A stretch of 64,000 nt of DNA, taken from NCBI GenBank assembly GCA_951802425.1, contig OX637797.1:1240001-1304000 (forward strand), in the 5' to 3' direction. Shown here in pieces: positions 1,612 through 64,000 of this stretch (position 1 is the stretch's first letter; each line of letters opens with the position of its first letter). Source of the DNA: Clavaria fumosa (taxonomy: Eukaryota > Basidiomycota > Agaricomycetes > Agaricales > Clavariaceae). The notes beneath the pieces are model-generated. The model ran no database searches, was not told the DNA's origin, and saw only the letters and a program-made list of their open reading frames with translations. Position numbers and translations under genes: made by a program.

Positions 1612-4600
1612 TTACGTTGCCACCTCAACATTTTGAAGCTCAGACTTAATGGGGTCCTGCTCTAACAATGTGGGAGAACGGTTGGCGCTGATACATGTCG
1701 GAGTGCTGGGTGCGGTGATGAGTTCTTGACCGACAGAGTCGGAGGCGTCGGTGCCCGAAACCGCGTCGGCACTGCCAGCCTCGGTCATCAGGTTCTGGAG
1801 AGGCATTGTTGGCGCCTCCGCACCATCACTCTGGCTACCCAACAGCAGTTCCAAGACGAAGCACTCCAGCTCGTGGGCGCTCGGATCAGCAGAGTCGCCC
1901 GGGATACTGGTTATAGCAGGCGGCGATGGAGTGGGAGATGGGTAGGGATTCTCATCCGCGGGCGGCAGCGCGGGCGACACTGGTAGACCCGATCTCGCGA
2001 AGAACATGTCCAATAAGACACGACACTCGTCCGCCGTCGTGGCTCTGGCCATCAGGCGATGGATGGTGTGCGCCTCCTCGACAGAGAATCGAAGCCGTAC
2101 ATCTGGCGGGGGGGTAGCAGCGCGTTGCGAGCTAGAGGGATGGACTTCGGGCACGGCAGAGGTGTCCTGCATGACGGGTTCAGCGGAGGGCAATGTAGGA
2201 GAACGCGCGCCACTCGAGGATGGCCTTTCAACTCCAACATCCTTGTCCTGTCGCTGTAAATCGCGTTTTGGGGGCGGCTTAGGAGCAATAGGTTCCGCAT
2301 CAAGGTCAAGCAAATGATTTGGCGAATCCTCATCGAGGTTCTTGGGGACTTTCGGTGGCAAAATTTTCCGAGAAGCAGACGGTAAATGAGAAGGCGGCGT
2401 TGGCGCAGGTGGCGTATAAGCATCTGCGGAAGCCTGCGAGGGCGAAGAAGGCGGAGAAAGCAGTGGAATGAGTGGCGCTGGCGGCGGCGGCGGCACTGGT
2501 GGTGGGTATGTAGTGATCGGTAAATTTGTTTGCGAACGCCTCCAGTTCAATGACGCGCTAAGCGTCTGAGGGGCGATAGAGCTTATGGTGGACTCAACGC
2601 CGGTGCTGGACGCGCGAGAGTGACGGTCATGCCCAATCGTCAGCCGTGAAAGCATCTTTTGTAGCCGACTAGAACTCTTTGGCTTCGTCGGCTCGATGAG
2701 TGGTAAGGGAGGTTGGGATACTTCAGGTGGACCATCGGCGAGGAAATCCATGAGAGCCCTAGTGGAAGCAGACACATGATGAGCAGGGGCTGATTGGGGC
2801 TTCGTGGTAGGCGGCGGCACAGGAGGGGCTTCCTCTGACTCATCTTCTCCCGAGCCAGCAATGACTTCATCAAGGTCCATTGATTCCCGAGGGACGACAA
2901 TCTTAGTCCCTCTAGGGGGCGGTGGCGCGTGCCGTTTGGGAGGTTGGTCATTGTTCATTCGCGCTGGGTATTGCGGAGGTGGAACCTGACGTTGGCCCTT
3001 GATCGAAGATTTGCGCAACATATTGACGCCCATAGTGCCAGATGTAGACAGCGAGCGGAACCGAGCAAAACTGGTGTTCGAGGACACAGAAGAAGTTTCG
3101 ATCTTGTTATGGTCGTACCGGTTAGTACTTTGACTGGGTCTCGTATTCTCATCATTCTCGGTGATTGAGTCTACCCTGCGAACGCCGTTCCCTGTCCGTT
3201 CAACAGACCTGTGAACAGACCCTTTCGCAGCAGGTGAGCTGAAATCGGCCACTCCGTTTGACTGTGAGGACGTTCTAATGGTGCCACGATGCCTATCCTT
3301 GTTGTGCACCTATTGACAGTCAACGAGAGCACATCGAAGGAAACAACAGTCAGACCTCCATAGTCTTGAGTCTATCAGGTGTCAACGAGACCTTCAAAGT
3401 GGAGTCAGAACGCATGAGGTTATCGAATTCCTGTTGAAGTTCAGCGTCCTAAGGTGATATGAGCCTTGTCCCATCGTTTTGCTATTAGAGGCAAGGCATA
3501 CCAGAATACCGGGCGCGATATCATAAGAGGCCAATGTTTTCCTAGTGTCAAAGCTGAGTACTGAATCAGATCTTTGATCTTGATCTTCCACGTCTCTACT
3601 AGTGCCTCTCTCTGGGTTTTGTGTAGGTTTCGGTGGGTTGAACATTTTCGTTTGCATGGCCTTGTCAACAGATGACCTCGGGGTCGTTACGCTTGCTTTA
3701 CCTTGCACGGCTGTAGAGATTGATGTGTTTGTCCAAATAGGCGTAATTTAGAAGACGGGACTAACGAGAAGTGTTCCGAGATAACGACCCAGTTTCATCA
3801 CGAGTGAATGACCTGCTCCGGCTTGGCTTGGAGACTTTGGATAGGCTTTCGATCTGCTCGTGCACTTGATCTAGGTCAATGCCACAGGCTTACTTGAGGC
3901 CAGAAGTCTTGTCACCCACCTTTCATGGATTTGAAAAGGACGTAGACGGAATGATCCTCGCACAGCGCTGTGAAAAGATCCTGGATAGTGGCCGATGTCC
4001 TGCTACTGTCACGAGCGGCAACCCTGCCAACGTTCGTCAAGATATGTCTGGACAAAACAGTCAGGACTTCTTCGTGACATAAGGATAACATACACACTCG
4101 CAGAGGGATCTAGAGGCAAAGTGGATTCAGACGATTTTTGACAGGAAAGATAAATGAAAAAAGCTCACTCTAAGATAGCAGTGAGATAAAGAGCAGCGGG
4201 TGCCACAAGAGCAGGGTTAGGAGGTGCACCACCGGTCTTAGAAAAGCGATCGTTGAGACGAGCTTCCGCGGTGGCATCCTCGTCCGATTCGTTCAGAGTC
4301 GAATAACCTTCGCACTTGAGCCGCAGCAGCTAAAGATCATGACGGTTTTAGCTATCGATCGATTGAAGGGGAGGAAAATGCGAAATGTACCTCAAAAGTC
4401 CATGCTAGGTTGAAAGATTTGGGTGCGTCGCTTTCCGTCGCTGCGGCTGTGCCGACTCGGTCCCAGTACGCCCTCAGCTCAACTTCGGCCTCTAGCAGGG
4501 CCTCCTTGCCAAGTGACGTGGGGAGGATTTGAAGAAGAGCAACTTTGAGCTTGTCGGTTGTCAAGGAACGGGCGACGCTGAGAATGGTGTAGAGCAGCTC

Positions 4601-4809
4601 GTCCAACAAAATGTTGATAGCACGAAGTGGCTCCAACTTGAGTTTGATGGGCCGAATATCAGAAAGAATGACATCCGCTGAGTGCGCTACGATGTATGTA
4701 GGTCCTACGAAAGAGATTGGAGGGAACATGCTGAGATGAGGAAGGGGTCGAACGTGGAGAAGGGATCAAAGATCTTTTCCTCACCACGTTCATCAATGGT
4801 GCCAGCCAT
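1612..4809 (-). CDS. Protein with two histone-fold-like segments and a proline-rich tail (914 aa)
   Basis: I do not recognise a named family. Nine exons keep the frame: 4809-4785, 4704-4391, 4329-4169, 4109-4098, 4047-3920, 3870-3766, 3710-3502, 3448-3356 and 3309-1612. Residues about 12-110 are helical (ADVILSDIRPIKLK, then LRAINILLDELLYTIL). Residues about 140-210 read APAALYLTAILE, GRVAARDSSRTSATI and LFTALCED. This spacing resembles histone H2A (APxYLAAxLE, then AARDxxxTxI, then LAIRND). The last exon is low complexity, rich in Pro and Ser, with PPPPRGTK and VPPPPPAPL runs. The 4809 start gives MAGTIDERGPTYIVAHSADV after splicing; a start at 4729 is possible but would keep intron sequence. 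The histone-like reading is an inference from pattern only. A nuclear or chromatin role would follow if it holds. Confidence 0.75.
4098..4109 (-). other. 12-base microexon of the histone-fold-like gene
   Basis: Exon 4 is 12 bases, bounded by ...CTCTAG upstream and GTGTGT downstream on the minus strand. It joins two phase-2 junctions and adds SLC within ILE-SLC-EHILTN. Skipping it keeps the frame but shortens the second histone-fold-like helix by four residues. Confidence 0.7.
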
Positions 4810-5170
4810 GTTGAGGAGAACAGGTCGAAGCGAGAGCAGTGTGAAAAAAAAGCGGTCCACGGGTCACAGTCAGTGCGGGCCCAGTCACTCACGTCCGGAC
4901 CACAGCGGAATTTGGCACCATCTTTTTTGTTGTTGTTGTTGGGGACCTCCTTATAAGTTAATTGTAACACACATTTTCCACAATGGCCCTGGTCTGGCCT
5001 CCCCCCACCACCCACCCACATCAAACTCGTACCCGCCGATTGACAGGAGTAAGCTATTTAGGAAATTGAAACCATATGCAAATCTGTTGGCAAACCTTTT
5101 ATGAAAAGTGAATGAAACCAAATTTGTACTGGATCAGCCAATCAAATGTATCAACTGCCGTCGCGTATCT
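4810..5170. promoter_or_regulatory. Intergenic region, likely promoter of the 1612-4809 gene
   Basis: 361 bases between the start of the histone-fold-like gene and the end of the zinc-finger gene, both on the minus strand. It holds a short GTT/TTG repeat near 4925-4940. I see no convincing reading frame or RNA gene. Confidence 0.4.
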
Positions 5171-8100
5171 TCAAACTCTGAGCATCAGTGCAATAGCATC
5201 ATCTTCATCCTCACTTGGGAGAACTGTCCATCGGTGCTCAAGATCCACCATCTCCACCAGTTCCGAGCCTTCCTGCCTTTGATTCGGTGTATGCTTTTGC
5301 TCAGAGTTGTCTGACCGCCGCACCGAGGCCGTTGGTCGTTGCCCTAAATTTTGCGGTTGCTGCTCGAATATCTCTGGTCGCGGCTCTTGAACCTCTACCC
5401 GCTGTGGGTAACTTATACCCTCTTGACGGCTATCTTCTTCTGCAACTTCCAATCCAGAGTAGGAATCATCGCTTTCCAACTCGTCAGTCTCTTCCTCCAA
5501 AAAGGCAACTCCAGAGTGAACCAGTTTCGAGATATCACGAGATTTCAGGTCCTCAAAGTGCGATATCACCTGAACTCTCCGCGATTCCGCAGAAGCGCTT
5601 TTCCCATGGCTGGAGAAAAGTGCCAGGAAGCCATATTCGTCATAACGGCGCTCTTGTATGCTCTGAGAATCATTCATATCCACAGGACGGGCTACGCTCC
5701 TCAAAGGCATAGTGGCACGGTATAATTTGGCACCCTGGCCAACTGGTCCAAGAATATTTTTCAACACCTGGCACCATCATTCTCAGTCATTTTGCAGGTC
5801 ATATTATGGTCGAGGCGTACCCATGGTCCTAAATGTGCATGCCTCTCTGGAGTGATAGATGCAGGTCGGACTTGGCAAGGCACAGTCATGTAAGTAGGAG
5901 CATACTCCGGCATTGGGGGCAAGGTGGCGAGGATTGTGGGTCTGAACGGAGCCACGCTTGGCTTTGGCTTGCTGATGGGACGAGTATGATCAACCATAAT
6001 GTGAAGATATGCTGCACCAGAAGAATCAAAAGTCTCATGGCAACCTGAAGTATTTCTGCTCTCAGATTCATTGAAAAGCCATAGATGTTGGCCCTACCTT
6101 TGAAAGGACACATCAACGACCGATGCAGATGACGTTTCATGTGGGATCGCAGCTTATCTTCATCAGGAAAATCAAGAGGACAAGCATTCCATCCACAGTG
6201 GAATGTCTTCTAGGTTCATCCTCACTATGTGATCCACAAGACAGAAGTTGATTTAACATACCGAGTCCGATATTTCCTCAACATGTTTCATGACATGTTT
6301 CTCCAGGTTGTTGATGGAATTTAGTTGGGCATCGCAATCAAGCCATCTGCATTCCCGTAGACAAAGGCGTGTTGCTATCAACTCAAAAATCCCATCCCTC
6401 TGGATCGCCGCCGCTAGCTTGCGGTCTTGAATAAGACATGAAATATTTGGGATAACGACTCACATCCTTCCGCGCCAAGGTCTTGAAACTTCCCCATAAC
6501 AGTTGTCGGTTTGCTTGTTTTAGGAATACGATACGGCGCAGGTGGTACAAGCACGTGTACCCGTTTAGTGACGCGAGAGTTTTTACGCAATAGTTGCACA
6601 GTAGAAGCTTCTGTCAGAACATCAAGTGAAATAGGCGCTGCAGTCGGCAAATGATCCTCTGATGATTTGGCCATGGGTAATACTGGCCCCTCATCTGCAA
6701 AAGGTATACCTCCAACCACAGGTGAGATACTTGGTGAAGGAAAGAAGAGAGGCACTCCAGGAGATCTTTTCTCTTGATCATCCTGGGGCACTTGTGGCAC
6801 TTCATCGGATGGGCTTGCAACTTGAGCGACTACGGTGGCTTCTAGTATGCCATCCATGGACTCATCGACACCGTTGAGAGGTAAAGGATCAGAAGAATGC
6901 GTCGCTTCTACCAACGGCGAGGGTAACGGAGCATTGGTATCCATGAGGGGCTTGGGGTCTTCCTCCTGCTGTGTAATGTCAATGTTGAGCGGAGCGGGCT
7001 CGATCGGCGTGACTGGTGCTTCTTCATGCAAACCCATATCATGTAAGCCGCCTGACTCCCCTGAGGGAGGAAGAAGTGGTGTACTTGCAGTGTTTTGTAG
7101 CACAGGAGCAGGCATGTTCAACTCGGGATGGCCTTCAGGAATTGGAAGGAGTTGACGTCGCTTTGCGGATTCTACTGTTGCTGGCGGTTCATCTTGGGTC
7201 TTCCGCTTCCTTCTGTATCCAATCGCGCGAAGGATGTCTTTAGCAAGGGTTGTTATGTTAGCAGCATTGGGAGTTCTCTCGGCGAAACTCCAACGGCTTT
7301 GAGGCGGCTGAGGGACATTTGGTTCCGTGGGTGAGGCGACCGGAGCTGTATTCGTTGGCTGCACAGGAGCCTCTAACAGTTGTGTCACCTCGGGGAGGAC
7401 GTGCGCTACATTTGATGATGGTTCGGGAGTCGATGACGGTTGTGTCGCCTGGGGGGTCTGTAAGACGGTGGAATCTGGGGATGGATCTGGCGTGGCATGT
7501 CCCACCCCACGATTCAGCTGAGTTCGCAACGGTTCGGGCGCTGAGCGAAGCTTGATGCATTTTATGGTACGGTCAGCCGACTGATGCAGCTCGTAGAATG
7601 ATGTCGAGCTTGTGGTTCGGTTGACGCCGGCTAGGCTGTCGCCGGGATTGAAGCGTCTGATTTTGCCGTCTAGTGCCTTATGATAGCCGCCCGCCGGAGG
7701 TGGAAGTAGAAGCCATGAATCAGGAGGTGACGCCTTGGTCCAATCAGAGATCGCGGGCTGTGCAATCTCTAGAAATTGCACATAACTTGGTACAGGAAGC
7801 ACTTGTATTGTAAATGGTCGGTTAGTCATTTGTACTTGCGACGAGGAAGTATGTAAGGGTTCCGCACAGTTTTGATCGGTTTTCCCATGCTGCGAAGCCG
7901 GGACGAGGTGCACGGACTTGTCTAACAAAAGTTGGACATCAACAATACAGCTTGGAGGGGAGACAGGAATCATACCTGGTGAAGCTGTGGAAGGAACATT
8001 CGACTGCAAGCCAGTGGTAGAAGACGGGTGCGGAAAAGGGGCAACAGGTTGAGTTTCAGTCCTAGAGTAAGTGCTCACATCTGGAGCGCCTAAAGGAGAG

Positions 8101-9364
8101 CCACGGCCGCGTTCGATGTTTCCGGCATTAGCATTGTGATGCGAACTAGCAACCGCACGCGCCGGATAGACAGAGGAAATAGTCTGTGCGAGTGTTGAGC
8201 CTGTAGATACAGGGGCTGAAGTTATTGGAGCGACAATCTGAGGACGCGGAAGGGAGTTGGGTGCTATCGGGGCATCTGGCGGCTGACACCCCTCTGTGTA
8301 AGAGAGTGAGGAAGGATTGTGTAGAACATAGATGTACCTTGATGACAGATGGAATCTTCGGGAAATCAACGCTAGTGGCAGAAACGTCAAGAGCCACGGT
8401 CGAAGGAGCATGTTCTGTCTCGAGTCGATTCCCTGAACCCAACGCACCAGACAAACTGGAGGATTGAAATGCAGGATTGTAGTATGATGGTGCTACAAGG
8501 GGGTCAGATTGTGCAAATGACTACATGAAACGCTTACTGTATTGTGGGTTAATTGGTGCCGCGTGCTGAAAAGAGTAAACTCCCCTGACCCGAGCATCAG
8601 AGGGGACGTGCTGGGCCACGTATGAATGTGGCATGGGAGGGGGTGCTTGTTTATGGCTAGGGTGAGCATAATATGGACGCTCAGTGCGCGATTGGCCATA
8701 CGGTGCCTGTTGGGAGGCGTTTGATTGGTTTGGGTTTTGAGTCCGCTTGCTTTGTGATGAACGTTGATCCACGTCCGGAGCGTATGGAATAAATTTATTC
8801 TGGAAGAGGAATAAAATGAGGGCAAGAATCATAGAAAGAAAGTAGTGCAAACATGGTGGGGTGGCAGCGAACTGGTGCTCGGAACCTCTTCAATGTGGGC
8901 AGTTGGTTGCAGAAACGGCCCAGCCGCGGTAACGGGTTGATTCTGCCAAAGGTGCGTCGGGGCTAACACATCTGAGGGCTGAACTGGCCTGGTAGGCGTT
9001 ATTAACCCGCTGGCCAGTGCTGTAAGAACATGCATTATGTTTCATTGCATTTGATTCACCTTCGAGAACCAGAAAGCCGTGCCAGCGTTTGCCTAAATTA
9101 ACGCATAAGTTGAAAACGATAACGCGACAAACAAAGTAGATTGACGAACTCTGCTTCTTTGCCAGCCTGAATGCGTGCCAGAAGTTCTTGTTGAGTAGCC
9201 AGAAACGCTTGATGCCCGGCTTCGTTTGCTGCCGCTGCCGTATCGACGGCTTGTTGAACCGCTGCGATGGTCTGCTGGTTGCGATGGTAGGCCTCAGGCG
9301 AAACCATGGTAGCATGTATCAGCGTATTCTGACTCGTTGGCGCATTTTGACGGCCGTTAGACAT
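5171..9364 (-). CDS. Large nuclear-type protein with three C2H2 zinc fingers
   Basis: About ten exons. The N-terminal exon begins MSNGRQNAPTSQNTLIHATM and is Ala/Gln rich. The following exons, including the long one at roughly 8297-6455, are disordered and rich in Pro, Ser and Thr, with a basic patch YRRKRKTQ. The C-terminal part carries three fingers on separate exons: CLRECRWLDCDAQLN..H..H near 6380, CGWNACPLDFPDEDKLRSH..H near 6170, and CPFKGCHETFDSSGAAYLH..H around the junction near 6050. After them come HLGPWVLKNILGPVGQGAK and an acidic tail ending DEDDAIALMLRV. Junctions at 9146-9019 are uncertain. One phase-consistent reading uses a 33-base exon at 9092-9060, with its upstream donor inside the first open frame. 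The fingers suggest DNA or chromatin binding. The protein could belong to a remodelling complex, but I cannot name it. Confidence 0.75.
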
Positions 9365-9452
9365 GGCTTTTTTACAAGTACTTGGTCGGAGATGGCAACA
9401 ACGATGGTGTTGGATATCAGGTGCCGTGACTGGCTTCGTGACACTGACATTG

Positions 9453-9496
9453 ACAAGGGTCTACTGACTAGACCCTTGTGACTAGACTCTAGTCAC
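9453..9496. repeat. Two abutting perfect palindromes
   Basis: 9453-9463 pairs with 9469-9479 (11-base stem, ACAAGGGTCTA, 5-base loop). It is followed with a two-base overlap by 9478-9486 pairing with 9488-9496 (GTGACTAGA around a single C). They lie 89-132 bases upstream of the zinc-finger gene start, in its promoter or 5' leader. They could be dimeric factor sites or cruciform-prone DNA. Confidence 0.85.
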
Positions 9497-9732
9497 GCAT
9501 CTACAACCTTTTTTTTTTGAATCTGCTCTGCATTTATGTCTAAGTTGTGTACAGAGCATATGTGTTTAAGGTAGGGGATTAATGTGTGTGATGAGGGGGG
9601 GCCACTGACTAAGCACAACCTAGTGGCTGTGCTCACATAGATAGCTTATGTAATATGTAAAGAAAAGACTTACTGTATGTTGAACAGGTATTTTTATGGT
9701 TCCTCCTGCAAAGACAATGCGGGCGCATTCTA

Positions 9733-11184
9733 TCATAGAGCATCTTTGAGACGTATCTTTCCAGATCCTCGTTGTAGAGACTTAGGTTGTGACGATGCTG
9801 GTTTCCAACCAATCTGATGTGTGATTGAGGGGGCCGACTATGGAACAAGTGCAATCACCACTAACCAAGAATATAATTTGGAAAGTGGCAGGAATAGTGC
9901 CATCCCCCTCTCCATGCAGTTCTGGATCTATAATCAGGACTGAAAGGTAATCTGTCATGCGCATACCTTTATATATGGATGATGCAGCCGCCAATGTGTC
10001 TCGATGAAGGATGTGGCGGCTGCGGAAAGTCAGTGAATCCAAGAGATCGATGAGAAGACGGCTAACCGCCCAATGATGGCATTGCTTTCACCCATGCTGT
10101 GTAGATCTTCCAAGAGCTGAAACATGGTGGGATATGTGACTTTGATCTCGTCGACATCGACTGTGAGGAGCGTAAAGCCAGCGCGCCCAAGCAGGTTCGC
10201 AATGTCTCGTGCATCTGCGCGCCCATCGTAATTAGGTGCTCGAAAAGGCAGGGAAGCACGAATACCTGTCATGGGTGAAATATGAGGGGAGACGCCTCCC
10301 TCACGCTCCATCTCCGCAAGTTGCAGAGAGGTTCTGGGGTTTCCGTGATCATGATAATGAAGCACATCGTTGGCCAACGCAGCTCACCTCAACTCGAAAA
10401 GGGTGTCACCGCCGAATAAGGCGGCGAGGAAAAGGCCGTCGGGCTTCAGTGCTTCCTTGATCTGGACAAACATTCCTTCGAATCAAAATGAGACAGGTGT
10501 GGGATTTGGTGGAGTTAGCTTTGTACCGGGGAGGTCGTTGATCCAATGTTGACTCAGACATGAAACAATAGCTTCCTGTGAATCGCGACCTACGACCTCA
10601 AGCAGACGTTCCTCATCTGCGTGAATGCGATCGACTGCCACTGTGATCTATATTAATGAGCCGCTCGTAGCCAGGGTGTGAAACACACCTTGAAATTCAG
10701 AGTCGGCGTCACGGTAGAGAGTGTTTCCTGGAGTCCATGAGCCGAAGCATCAAACTTGAAAAATGGATGCTCACGGCTTGAGTCTAGCATGAGAACTCTG
10801 CTGGTTCTATGAAGGGTCAACAGTTTTGAAAAATGTCCTGGACCAGAGCCGAGGTCAAGTATCGTAGTAAAATTGCGTTTGACGTCCTGCAGATATAAAT
10901 TGAAATATTGCGAACACATTAGTACATTCATTTAAGCGTACAGTGAGCCTTTCTATCATGTTATCTGCAGCGAAGTTGCGGACGTAGTCCACAGTCCGGC
11001 TCTTCGTGCCAGCTTCTTGGCTTGCGGCTCGGTCTTTCTGTTGTTCTTTGACATGGCGATCAAACACTTGAAATGGGCTGACAGCGTCGTGACCACATGT
11101 GGGCGAGGAGTTGGCAATGACGGCGAATCCGCGCGTGCTGCGACATGCACGAGCATTGGACGGTAAAATACATCGGAGAGACAT
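9733..11184 (-). CDS. NDUFAF5: Complex I assembly methyltransferase, NDUFAF5 type
   Basis: SAM-dependent enzyme of the mitochondrial matrix. In animals the family hydroxylates an arginine of complex I subunit NDUFS7 during early assembly. The ATG at 11184 opens a basic, Arg-rich presequence ([20 protein letters not shown]), followed by [17 protein letters not shown]. Exon 2 (10886-) carries SAM motif [16 protein letters not shown]. Later exons give [79 protein letters not shown] and [17 protein letters not shown]. The last exon reads [20 protein letters not shown] and stops at 9735-9733. Eight or nine exons with short introns fit the family from start to stop. It is divergently paired with RCF2 across 228 bases. 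Its presence indicates a complex I-containing fungus. Confidence 0.92.
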
Positions 11185-20352: not shown

Positions 20353-22542
20353 TTAATCGTCATCATCGTCGTCCTCTATCTGTAGTATAGCGACCTCATA
20401 CTCCCCGCACACATCCCAACGTGAGCCTTCAGCTGCGGCCGACACGTATTTTACGAAGTGTAATACGCCCTCATCTCTGAGAACCAAGAGAAGTCGATTA
20501 AAGCCAGGGTGCACAGTGAGCAAAGTGCTGCCGTCATCGTCATCCTCTCCCTCGCTGTCCCTCTCGTTCCCTCCTTGCTCTTGTGCCTCATCGCCATTTG
20601 CAACTTCCCTGTTTGAGTGGTTGACATCGCTCCCGCTTGCTTCCATCTTCTTGCGTCCGCCAGAACTGGAACGATATATCGCAGGGTCATCTTCTTCCTC
20701 GTGGGGGGCCATGTAGCACTGTTGCATAGAGCTGAGGACTAGATTTACAAGACATAAAAGGAGACTCGCCTCCCATCCGCCCCACGCGCCAGATTGCCAA
20801 CCTCTCTGCCCATCGTCAAGGCATTCGTCCGCGAGCCGCGGAGTCAGACCGAGCACTACGTCGAGCCTGGATGTGTGCGGCTCGCTCGTGGCGAGTGTAT
20901 AGTCAAAACCAGGCCTGAAACGCCGGGCCTCCGCACTATATTGCATGGTGACGAGTTTGCACACGGCGGCGAGCCACGCGCGGAACGCCTCGCTGGTGAG
21001 CAGCTCGTTTTGGAGCGCACGCACGATCTCGATGGGCGCGAGGGCCGCGCGGGGCCGGGCCGTCTCGACGCGCCCTCGCGGCGACGAGGGGGCGAGAGTG
21101 CAATAGCGCCATTTGTGCGGCGGCCCTTTGAGCGTCCACTCCGCGCCCGTCCCGGCCCCATGAGGCGGCACGCGGCCGCCTCTTTCGCAGAATGCCAGCC
21201 CATCTCGCTCGTCCATTTCACGTAAGCCAGCTTCGATCTTTCTGGCAAGGTCGGGCGCCAGGAAGGCGTGTAGCTCGAGACTGGACTCCTCCAAAAAACG
21301 AGAGGAGAGATGTGCCATCGTCCGAGGCTGGAGGTACACTGGATTCAGGAATTCTGAGAGAAAGGCAACATGGTTCTCTGATAGAGGATCATTTGGCATT
21401 GGCGGGCTCATGGACTCGGGGTAAGTTCGAAGTTCGCTTGATGTAGATGTCTAGAGAGAGCACAGGTCAGTGAAGCTCGGGCTAAGATTTTGGTGCTCGC
21501 AAAAGCGTTACCAATTGTTCCCTGGAGCTTTTGACGTCAGACACTGCCTGCTGTGGTTCATACCCTTCCTCCCCTTCCTGCGCAGCATGGAACCATCCGC
21601 TAATAGACAGCCTCTCTCTGCCGTCTTCGGTATCGCCACCCACGACGACCTCCTCCACGCTGTGGAAGCTCTTCCCTGGCTGCGTTTCGAAGAAGATGAA
21701 CTGGTTCCAGCTGGGCGGAATCATCTTGGCGGGTATGGGTAACGGCTCGGCATGACCGCTGTCGTCATCAGTGGCCGGGTGGCAAGAGTAGAGCTCGAGT
21801 GCGCCGCCCCAGTCTCGCTGCCAGAGCTGGTGGCGGGGGAGAGGCATGTAGAGGATGTAGGACACGCGGCGCGAGCCGATGACATCGTCGTGGGTGAGGA
21901 GATGGCAACCCTTTGAGTATGAGTTGACAGACATATCCTGCTTGGTGCTCGAGAGCGCGCCGCAGCCAGTGACGGCGCGCAAGAAAGCGCGGAAGCGCGC
22001 CGAGTAGAGCGCGTCGCGTAGTTGCAACAGGGACGGGAGACGCGCGACCTGGGCTGAAGAGAGGAAGGAGAGCGACGCGAGGTCGCCGGTTTGGTTAATC
22101 TTGGAAAAGGCATAGAGAACGATTAGAAAGTGCCGTGTTTGGAAGGCTTGGGGGACGGGGGACTTACTTTATAAATGTCTGTCTCCTTCTGGGAGAAGCA
22201 CAATTCGCTGAGACACTCGTCCTTGACCCGTTCGAGTAGCCCGTCCTGGAAGAGCTTCTCCACGGCGACGTGCCTAAACGGCTCGGCGCCGACGTACGCC
22301 GTGTGCAACGCCTGGATGTGCGGTGGGTCGAAGAGGCCCTTTGCGAACTGCGCCGTACATTCCTCGTTGCTGTCACCGACGTGGCTGCCGCCAGCAACGC
22401 GTCCGCTGTCCAGCGCAATTATCGTCGCTTCTTCATGGTCGGCCTTAATTTTTTTCGGCGGATTGCGGTTGGGCTCTGCGTCGGCACTGGGCGACCGGGA
22501 GCGGGTACGGGTCTTCGTCGTGAGCTGCGTGCCATTTTGCAT
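20353..22542 (-). CDS. TPA1: Prolyl dihydroxylase Tpa1/Ofd1 type (686 aa)
   Basis: Fe(II)/2-oxoglutarate dioxygenase. Family members hydroxylate a proline of ribosomal protein uS12 and tune translation termination; the fission-yeast member also senses oxygen for SREBP turnover. Exons 22542-22168, 22099-21512 and 21450-20353 sum to 2061 bases. The N-terminus carries an NLS-like PPKKIKADHEEA. The catalytic domain shows the HxD iron ligands in GCHLLTHDDVIGSRRVSYIL, a distal His in GKSFHSVEEVVVGG and the 2-oxoglutarate Arg in RLSISGWFHA. The C-terminal half is the second, non-catalytic double-stranded beta-helix. It is interrupted by an acidic insert (near SEGEDDDDGS) and ends in an Asp run. Codons in 20800-22100 are much richer in G+C than in neighbouring genes. 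Confidence 0.92.
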
Positions 22543-61508: not shown

Positions 61509-62541
61509 TCACCACCTTCGAGTCCTCTTCCACGGAGCATCTGCTACTTTCTTCCCTGCTGCTTCGATCACGCTCCCACACCAATCCCATCCGAAATACA
61601 ACCCGACGGCGGCGTTGAACAGCTGAAGAGCAAAGCAGGCCCATATGACTATATTGAACACATTGGTTAAGAAAATACCACACGGTGAAGATTATAACAA
61701 ATGCACGCACAACCATGGGAACCCCCCAGATGTACTGTGAAGGGGTAGTTTCCGAGAGGTGGGGAGTTGTCGGTTGGTTTCCTTCGCACGGTGTCAATAA
61801 TGTTCGTACGCCTGACAAAATTCACGATGACTATTGTGCCAATAAAAGTGCCTGAACTCAGACCGGAAATGAACACCATAATAATAATAAAGGCCGAGGG
61901 GATGAGGCACTCACATATCAAGAAGTGGATAACTTCCACTATCGCGTATGTTTTAGCTTTCCACGTCTTTCTTAGACCGGCACCACAGCACTCGCGGTGG
62001 TGGGCGCACTCCTGCAATCTGCAGCAAGCTGCTGTTGAATACAGCGTAGTAACCCCCCATGAGATCATGAAAGGCAATAGGAAGAGAGCAACGTAGATCC
62101 GAGTCAATATATCCGGTTTTAACTGATCACGAATATTTCCATCGTAATGACCTCCCAAGTCTGATTGATCCAATGTCAGTATTTTAACCGATAATCGATT
62201 GCATGTCAGAAAGGCAAACAAACCCCAAAGTGGTTGAAAGTCAAACTTCTTGTGATTAATGTCTTTGCAATCCCACACTCCTTTGGTAAGTTGGCAAGAT
62301 GCTGAATAAATATGCTCAAATAAATAGACGAAAGGTCAGGGAGGAACGTTGTAATCTTACTCAATGGTCCAAAGAAGTGCCAAACGCCATTGATGAGATC
62401 GTCTGGTTTGAAAAACATCATTGACAACCATCGACCAGAATTGAAGAAAGCCAATAGCATAAAGCCGAATGCGACATAGTGAAAGAAACAGCTAGGGATC
62501 CATAGGCAGTCGCACTCGTCCTTGCAATGACACCTAGGCAT
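61509..62541 (-). CDS. Tetraspan membrane protein, left paralogue (265 aa)
   Basis: Exons 62541-62361, 62301-62224, 62160-61915, 61851-61699 and 61648-61509 sum to 798 bases; every intron is phase 1. It starts MPRCHCKDECDCLWIPSCFF, so the N-terminus is Cys rich. Membrane helices are near residues 18-40, 98-118 (RIYVALFLLPFMISWGV), 150-185 and 215-245 (IWACFALQLFNAAVGLYFGW). Exon 2 encodes a short extracytoplasmic segment, TSCQLTKGVWDCKDINHKK, with a Cys pair. A Cys-rich loop (CCRLQECAHHRECCG) follows helix 2. The start, exon phases, donor GTGAGTGCCTCA and the SC..T.G....CK..N pattern are shared with the divergent gene at 63049. I do not recognise the family. Function is unknown. Confidence 0.78.
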
Positions 62542-62628
62542 TATTTATGTGATGTTCGAGAGGAAGGCGACTGGAATGCTGGATGGACGCAAGGAAGTGG
62601 CGGCTTAGCAGTAGAGACAGTTGGGAAC

Positions 62629-62636
62629 TTTTTATA
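62629..62636 (-). promoter_or_regulatory. TATA box of the left tetraspan gene
   Basis: TATAAAAA on the minus strand, about 95 bases upstream of the ATG at 62541. The same element occurs in the mirror position of the other arm. Confidence 0.65.
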
Positions 62637-62768
62637 AGATGTTGGCAGGTGGGATGCTCTGGGGATTGCACATGATGTGTTAGGAGCTCAGGAGACAAAC
62701 TGACACGCCGAATGGTGTTGGATTGTCGAGTTGCGAGTCAAGTTTCGGAGAATCAAGCAGTGCACTTT

Positions 62769-62821
62769 GTCATAGAAACTTTGTAATGCTCCAGCATTGC
62801 TTTTCGTCATAGAAACTTTGT
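62769..62821. repeat. 16-base direct repeat in the palindrome spacer
   Basis: GTCATAGAAACTTTGT occurs at 62769-62784 and again at 62806-62821, 37 bases apart. Both copies are in the same orientation, unlike the flanking arms. They could be paired factor sites or traces of the rearrangement. Confidence 0.85.
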
Positions 62822-62943
62822 GCGATACACGATTCAAAACTTGACATGCAACTCGACAATCCAACACCATTCAGCGTGTCAGTTTGTCTCCTGAGCTCCT
62901 AACATCATGTGCAATCCCCAGAGCATCCCACCTGCCAGCATCT

Positions 62944-62951
62944 TATAAAAA
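62944..62951 (+). promoter_or_regulatory. TATA box of the right tetraspan gene
   Basis: TATAAAAA, 105 bases upstream of the ATG at 63049. It mirrors the box at 62629-62636. Confidence 0.65.
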
Positions 62952-63048
62952 GTTCCCAACTGTCTCTACTGCTAAGCTGCCACTTCCTTGCGTCCATCCA
63001 GCATTCCAGTCGCAACTGAGTTCCTTCCTCTCGAACATCACATAAATA

Positions 63049-64000
63049 ATGCCTGTGTGCCACATAGGGTATCGCTTCCAGGCCTGCTGGTTTCTTACCT
63101 TCCTCCTCCACACCGGAATGATATTATCGTTCCCTCTTCTTTTGCTCGCCCCGAACTACTCCCCGCTCCGGAAGTCGAATCCTGCAATGCTGTATTTCAA
63201 GCCAAATACGACTGGTGGTACTTCTTACCATTTTGGGCTGTTGGGTAAAATCACATTACTCCATCCCTTCGTCTCTTTGTTCGAACGTATATATTGCCAG
63301 ACTCTTGCAAATACACTAACGGAGAGCCGTCCTGCAAGACTCCTAATAATCCCTTCGTGCCAAATTGGGGTTCGTTTCTTGATGCGCAATTGGTCTCATC
63401 GGGTGATGCTAATCGATCGATCAGATTCGGGAAGTGATTTTTATATCAATAGGATAATGACACCAGATAAAATTTTGGTCGGAGCTCTTGCTCTCTTTGA
63501 GATCAGTGGCGGCATGTCGTTTCTTTCCTGGCCGTTTACATTAGTCGCCACCTACGGGGCATGCAGACGTTTCCGTATGAGTCCTAGCAAGAGAGCGAAA
63601 GAGCCAGCTTACCTGGGGCCTCCATGTGGCCCATACCTCAACAAGGTCAACGGGTATATGAATATTGCCAATATGGTGTTGGGTGAGTGCCTCACCCTCT
63701 ATGCATTTGCGCATCCATGGTATTCATTTCCGGTGGCCCAGGTTTAATTGCAACCACGGCATTCGTGACGTCGCTCTCCACAACTAAGTCAGGTCTTGAC
63801 CCCCTCGTGGATCCAGCAGGGGACGTGACACAAACAAGGGAATACGATTTTGAGGTACTTACAGGGGGTGCCTTCGGCTGTACGTGCATTCTTGGTAATC
63901 TTCGCCATGTCCACTTTTCTTAACTAATGTATTCATTATAGTTTTGTGGGCTAGAGATGGTCTTCAAATAGCCATTGCGATTTTCACATCGCATGTATCA
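63049..64000 (+). CDS. Tetraspan membrane protein, right paralogue, 3' end cut off
   Basis: Exons 63049-63244, 63301-63369, 63425-63682, 63742-63894 and 63942 onward, the last cut by the window edge. All introns are phase 1, and exon 4 is 153 bases as in the left paralogue. It starts MPVCHIGYRFQACWFLTFLL. Exon 2 reads DSCKYTNGEPSCKTPNNPF, with the same Cys pair as the left gene. Exon 3 begins DSGSDFYINRIMTPDKILVG and contains the second helix (SGGMSFLSWPFTLVATYG). Exon 4 ends GGAFGCTCIL, matching GGSHGCACI of the left gene. Exon 5 begins LWARDGLQIAIAIF. Overall similarity is weak outside these points. Function is unknown. Confidence 0.78.

Follow-up and report, generated by a model that had tools for sequence, protein, structure and literature searches.

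How can two neighbouring genes keep almost the same promoter in mirror image while the proteins that they encode have become barely comparable? The question arises in a 64,000-nt window of the Clavaria fumosa genome (the whole stretch of DNA analysed here, C4:1240001-1304000), for which a preliminary description had placed a palindrome at 62539..63051, between two divergent genes for four-span membrane proteins, with arms about 97% alike by eye, a 91-base spacer and TATA boxes inside the arms. The inverted repeat is present there, flanked by a head-to-head gene pair (Table 1), and computation bears out the estimate by eye: the left arm (204 nt) and the right arm (212 nt) are identical at 197 of 202 aligned bases (97.5%), with one 2-nt and one 10-nt gap, the spacer measures 91 nt, and TATAAAA starts at matching places in the two arms. 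The likeness of the arms is far beyond chance, with none of 500 alignments of shuffled arms scoring as well. A single strand of the region folds to -267.6 kcal/mol, compared with -68.4 ± 4.8 kcal/mol for 100 shuffled versions, none of which was as low (z = -41.9).

Table 1. Features of the locus and comparison features. Positions are those of the window unless a contig or stretch (L number) is named; the last five rows are near-perfect palindromes of 1.1-1.6 kb.
Feature	Position	Strand	Description
Left tetraspan gene	61509..62541	-	261 residues, five exons, four phase-1 introns
Left gene exons	62541-62361, 62301-62224, 62160-61915, 61851-61711, 61648-61509	-	hand-built splice model
Left arm	62542..62745	-	promoter, TATAAAA from 62636 downward, and inferred 5'UTR of left gene
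Asymmetric spacer	62746..62836		91 nt between arms
Right arm	62837..63048	+	promoter, TATAAAA from 62944, and inferred 5'UTR of right gene
Right tetraspan gene	63049..64000, on to 64138	+	285 residues; runs 138 nt beyond the window (L008)
Right gene exons	63049-63244, 63301-63369, 63425-63682, 63742-63879, 63942-64138	+	hand-built splice model
Third paralogue	contig C11, L009 4997-3966	-	264 residues, hand-built splice model
Palindrome	L010 2592-4180		
Palindrome	L021 1894-3433		
Palindrome	L019 669-2268		
Palindrome	L025 7071-8140		
Palindrome	L027 6905-7980		

The two flanking genes and a third paralogue on contig C11 were compared using splice models built by hand, which are backed by the same introns in all three. 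Each of the three has four introns of 51-66 nt at the same positions, all in phase 1 and with GT...AG ends, and each encodes a protein with four hydrophobic stretches that are predicted membrane spans. The left and right genes also align along most of their length. Their common exon/intron layout and four predicted spans therefore mark them, on sequence comparison, as paralogues from an inverted duplication, and this paralogy is firmer than the preliminary description could show, with all four intron positions and phases and a near full-length alignment behind it. The inverted repeat is accordingly flanked by genes that are paralogous in introns, phases and alignment and that stand in divergent orientation. 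Both genes look intact. An apparent frameshift had invited a pseudogene reading of the right gene; it disappears once the second intron, common to the three paralogues, is recognised, and so does a stop in the unspliced frame of the C11 gene. The right protein carries a longer tail in its last exon (63942-64138) with PPSY, which we take to be a PPxY-type motif and which is missing from both other paralogues.

The coding parts of the pair have diverged strongly. Protein identity is 25.6% for left/right, in agreement with the earlier remark that the proteins share only scattered residues, 29.9% for left/C11 and 29.6% for right/C11; for codon-aligned coding DNA the values are 44.7, 49.8 and 50.5%. 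Synonymous Jukes-Cantor distances, taken from filtered and unfiltered alignments with two aligner settings, are 1.35-1.66 (left/right), 1.00-1.17 (left/C11) and 0.83-1.18 (right/C11). Trimmed introns are identical at 72.9% of sites for left/right (140/192), 70.7% for left/C11 and 75.4% for right/C11, compared with about 58-63% in shuffled controls. The arms are thus far more alike than the age of the duplication predicts, differing at 2.5% of sites compared with about 27% for the trimmed introns of the same pair, whose synonymous distance is above 1; at the intron rate, the chance of five or fewer differences in 202 sites is 4.9e-21.

The C11 gene, which is no farther from the left or right gene (synonymous distance 0.83-1.18) than these are from each other, provides a comparison within the family. 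Its upstream region is identical to the two arms at 65.1 and 64.3% of sites, where shuffled sequences reach 60%, and none of 500 shuffles scored as well. This small excess suggests that the C11 gene inherited the ancestral promoter, which then diverged to about the same extent as the exons, and it speaks against the view, based on a 47% alignment without a control, that the C11 promoter is wholly unrelated. Since the C11 gene is as near to the pair members as they are to each other and yet has a diverged promoter, the arms are alike because of their place in the palindrome rather than their membership of the family. The weak upstream match may also mean that the C11 gene received a different promoter on moving, which would weaken it as a control. 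Taken together, near-identical arms, proteins at 25.6% identity, synonymous distances above 1 and a diverged C11 promoter argue that independent evolution of the arms since the duplication is not possible.

A separate observation concerns introns and exons. Among the three paralogues the trimmed introns (71-75%) are better conserved than the adjoining exons (59-64%, close to shuffled sequence); the right gene and the C11 gene, for instance, agree at 40 of 46 positions in intron 3, and synonymous sites look more diverged than introns. When exons were treated as introns, they gave 63.2, 59.2 and 63.6% (left/right, left/C11, right/C11), near the shuffles in identity, with alignment scores that mostly lay above the shuffles (z 0.7 to 9.4; introns, z 1.6 to 10.1). 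Function within the introns or fast change of the exons is a possible cause. Positive selection on the exons is unsupported, as pN was below pS in 12 of 12 comparisons; in the filtered alignments pN exceeded pS in a share of 0.02-0.03 of bootstraps for left/right and of 0.07-0.20 for the C11 pairs, so that the filtered C11 comparisons are not decisive.

Where the likeness begins and ends was followed in blocks of 30 alignment columns. From the centre outward, the blocks hold 16, 20, 27, 28, 30, 29, 29, 20 and 30 identical positions, and further outward 15, 17, 12, 14, 17, 14, 18, 20 and 22; the block scoring 20 between 29 and 30 is the one with the 10-nt gap, and the outermost blocks reach intron 1. 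The match had been described as stopping abruptly at the opposing ATGs. A sharp fall does occur there, from 30/30 to 15/30 between adjoining blocks, but about five similar codons beyond the ATGs (MPRCH/MPVCH) still belong to the match. All three paralogues have AATAATGCC in common at their start. The outer ends of the arms lie at homologous points of the two genes, and the 3' flanks of the genes share nothing beyond exact words of 10-14 bases.

The spacer is built differently. Its halves are weakly symmetric, with 30 of 1000 shuffles scoring as well, and it holds two direct copies of GTCATAGAAACTTTGT (62769-62784 and 62806-62821). A genome scan for this motif with up to two mismatches gave 106 matches, compared with 20 for the reversed control, and the two spacer copies are the only exact ones among the matches listed. 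At 62753-62821 lie two 32-nt direct repeats, 84% alike and 37 nt apart. Because these repeats are direct and not inverted, they probably either postdate the inverted duplication or result from a local inversion; they are possible shared upstream activating sites.

The genome searched measures 48.8 Mb in 17 contigs. A search with the whole inverted-repeat region returned only its match to itself, on both strands; the search, which skips very common words, found no second copy. As queries for further family members we took the first exon of the left gene, the right gene's unspliced frame and two frames from C11, and no convincing fourth member was found with them; weak matches at L006, L007 and L039 were judged by eye to be chance, and we judge that the known members in this genome are three. 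Beyond this genome, a search with the three-member alignment found no homologue at E ≤ 10 among 5386 candidates, by a word-based method that can miss fast-evolving proteins. A control query, the Ofd1-type neighbour at 20356-21450, gave 447 database matches, and many of the best 120 of these carry fungal names; fungi are therefore represented in the database. The best named relatives of this neighbour are 53-57% identical to it; two of them, Panus rudis and Amylocystis lapponica, belong to the Polyporales, an order of Agaricomycetes, so that the database most likely contains no close relative of this Agaricomycete. Pfam searches gave no match for the unspliced frames and, for the spliced proteins, two chance-level matches from one member each, to PF10785 (E = 0.1) and SUR7 (E = 1.4). 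Membership of SUR7/PalI (PF06687) thus stays outside the cut-off, with one of three members matching at E = 1.4, and a genome search with this family found three other places, one of them above the cut-off and none of them these genes. A profile search of solved structures gave one chance-level match (E = 0.95).

We also surveyed palindromes elsewhere, in 20 stretches of 10 kb at regular, chosen (not random) places on contigs C1-C3. In five stretches (L010, L019, L021, L025 and L027) there is a palindrome that matches itself at 96% or better and whose arms measure about 500 bases or more; at the same threshold the window contains no other palindrome. The five fall into four families, as the L025 and L027 palindromes match each other and are copies of one element, and three families are multicopy by genome search: the three of the five palindromes that were searched for gave at least 69, at least 72 and at least 88 matches, counting both arms and fragments among the best candidates scored. 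Like the promoter palindrome they are near-perfect, with little or no spacer. Among the matches listed, the L010-family places on C1, C2, C4 and C11 lie within about 0.33 Mb of a contig end. Weaker or wider-spaced inverted repeats were seen in L010, L016, L017, L019, L022, L023, L026 and L027. L017 also holds a tandem array with a 585-base period (2611-9779), whose unit includes a stretch that is about 73-75% self-complementary. In addition, GTTATAGGAACTTTGT recurs every 655 bases in arrays (for example C11:30152-36702, C9:121215-124490 and C8:763281-767211), several of them near contig ends, and is likely a satellite.

The reading that we favour, with a probability of roughly 0.55, is gene conversion from arm to arm, recurrent or recent, confined to the promoter and 5'UTR. 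On this view a four-span gene was long ago duplicated in inverted orientation, so that two copies, each keeping a promoter of its own, stood head to head with the junction near 62791. Afterwards the two arms, made up of promoter and 5'UTR, would have overwritten each other in this short-spacer palindrome, by pairing within the molecule, repair from the sister chromatid or template switching. Exchange would halt at the start codons where the coding parts are too diverged, or exchange there may be selected against, while the spacer, we infer, lost its symmetry, which is expected to stabilise the palindrome. The outcome would be one promoter module in two mirrored copies, with similar regulation of both genes likely and the proteins free to diversify. 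Arm-to-arm conversion would explain the linkage of the arms, their homologous outer end points and the diverged spacer; it predicts that the outer ends lie at homologous points of the genes, as they do, and the pattern of like arms and unlike spacer resembles a case described in PMC1803023. On the other side, conversion, whose tract ends vary, would hardly be expected to leave so sharp an edge at the ATGs unless heterology blocks it. The arms also show no clear increase in G+C. The preliminary description had suggested looking for biased G+C; at 48.5 and 47.2%, the arms do not clearly rise above the adjoining genes (45.4 and 48.2%) or the window (51.9%). More tentatively, the mirrored module may have been kept by repeated conversion while the proteins became near-unrecognisable, with equal expression selected and coding conversion blocked.

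The closest competitor differs from recurrent conversion in the number of events only. One promoter may have been replaced once, long after the duplication, by an inverted copy of the other's, through fold-back template switching or a single conversion, with the joint in the short homology around the start codon. The high identity over the whole arm and the sharp edge at the ATG fit such a copy, AATAATGCC at the start of all three paralogues offers a possible joint, and a single event would account for the linkage, the homologous outer ends and the diverged spacer; the outer ends of the copy must, however, fall at homologous points. We consider this reading somewhat unlikely. The late capture of a copied promoter, one of three explanations offered earlier, is in effect this single conversion event and fits as well as recurrent conversion. 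Homogenisation of the arms emerges as the best supported of the three, given 2.5% difference in the arms against about 27% in introns and synonymous distances of 1.35-1.66, whereas strong selection for a symmetric promoter does poorly by itself. Acting without exchange, selection would need to preserve almost all of some 200 nt, 5'UTR included, in genes whose introns and synonymous sites diverged strongly, and the C11 upstream region shows no such constraint; the TATA box at a matching place and probably a whole 5'UTR in both arms speak for it, yet we think it improbable. Selection for symmetry is a possible reason why conversion was tolerated.

The two remaining explanations are more improbable still. 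A fold-back (palindromic) transposable element could have landed between the genes and become their promoter, in a genome where long palindromic repeats are common (present in 5 of the 20 stretches of 10 kb surveyed). The three genome palindromes searched for are multicopy, however, whereas the promoter palindrome matches only itself in a search that skips very common words, and its arms end outward at the corresponding ATGs of two paralogues; a transposon origin was rejected on copy number, a self-match alone standing against at least 69, at least 72 and at least 88 matches. Palindromes are a weak point of assemblies, and a fold-back read or over-polished arms might have produced the structure, but five substitutions and two indels separate the arms, the spacer lacks symmetry and the two sides lead into different, apparently intact genes. 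Because of these points against each, selection by itself, a transposon and an artefact account for the data less well than conversion or a single late copy.

If arm-to-arm conversion is correct, duplicate genes can follow opposite evolutionary tracks, their control regions evolving in concert and their proteins free for new function, and fungal genomes would seem able to retain a palindrome whose arms measure about 200 nt and whose spacer measures 91 nt. Both genes would then likely be under similar regulation from the mirrored module. Inverted paralogues in a fungus are also found in the Saccharomyces flip/flop region, where, as Salzberg et al. describe it, continual homogenisation preserves the likeness of sporulation genes in inverted repeats (Salzberg et al., 2022, PMC9731477). 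There, two 4-kb repeats with the genes inside them stand at the ends of an inverting 24-kb region (PMC9731477), whereas here the repeat is a 0.2-kb promoter with a 91-nt spacer.

Our literature search, with most subscription journals outside its coverage, found no closer case than a nematode precedent, the Caenorhabditis pairs of divergent paralogues that arose by inverted duplication and have intergenic inverted repeats (Zhao et al., 2007, PMC1803023). As reported there, F44E5.4/F44E5.5 of C. elegans have arms of 160 bp at 95.7% identity, a spacer of 126 bp and genes that are 100% identical, and in a duplicate of C. remanei the arms and coding parts changed more slowly than the spacer (PMC1803023). 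In the C. briggsae pair CBG13231/CBG13232 the inverted repeat was kept while the C-terminal parts diverged, the first 297 nt being 100% identical and the whole 59.6% (PMC1803023). Gene conversion is named as one mechanism, and selection on the structure is also argued (Zhao et al., 2007, PMC1803023). In the nematode pairs described, the structure is shown in several species and the conserved tract extends into the coding parts or right across them, whereas the fungal palindrome is known here from one genome and its likeness ends at the start codons. With proteins at 25.6% identity, the fungal pair is a more extreme case of the behaviour seen in Caenorhabditis.
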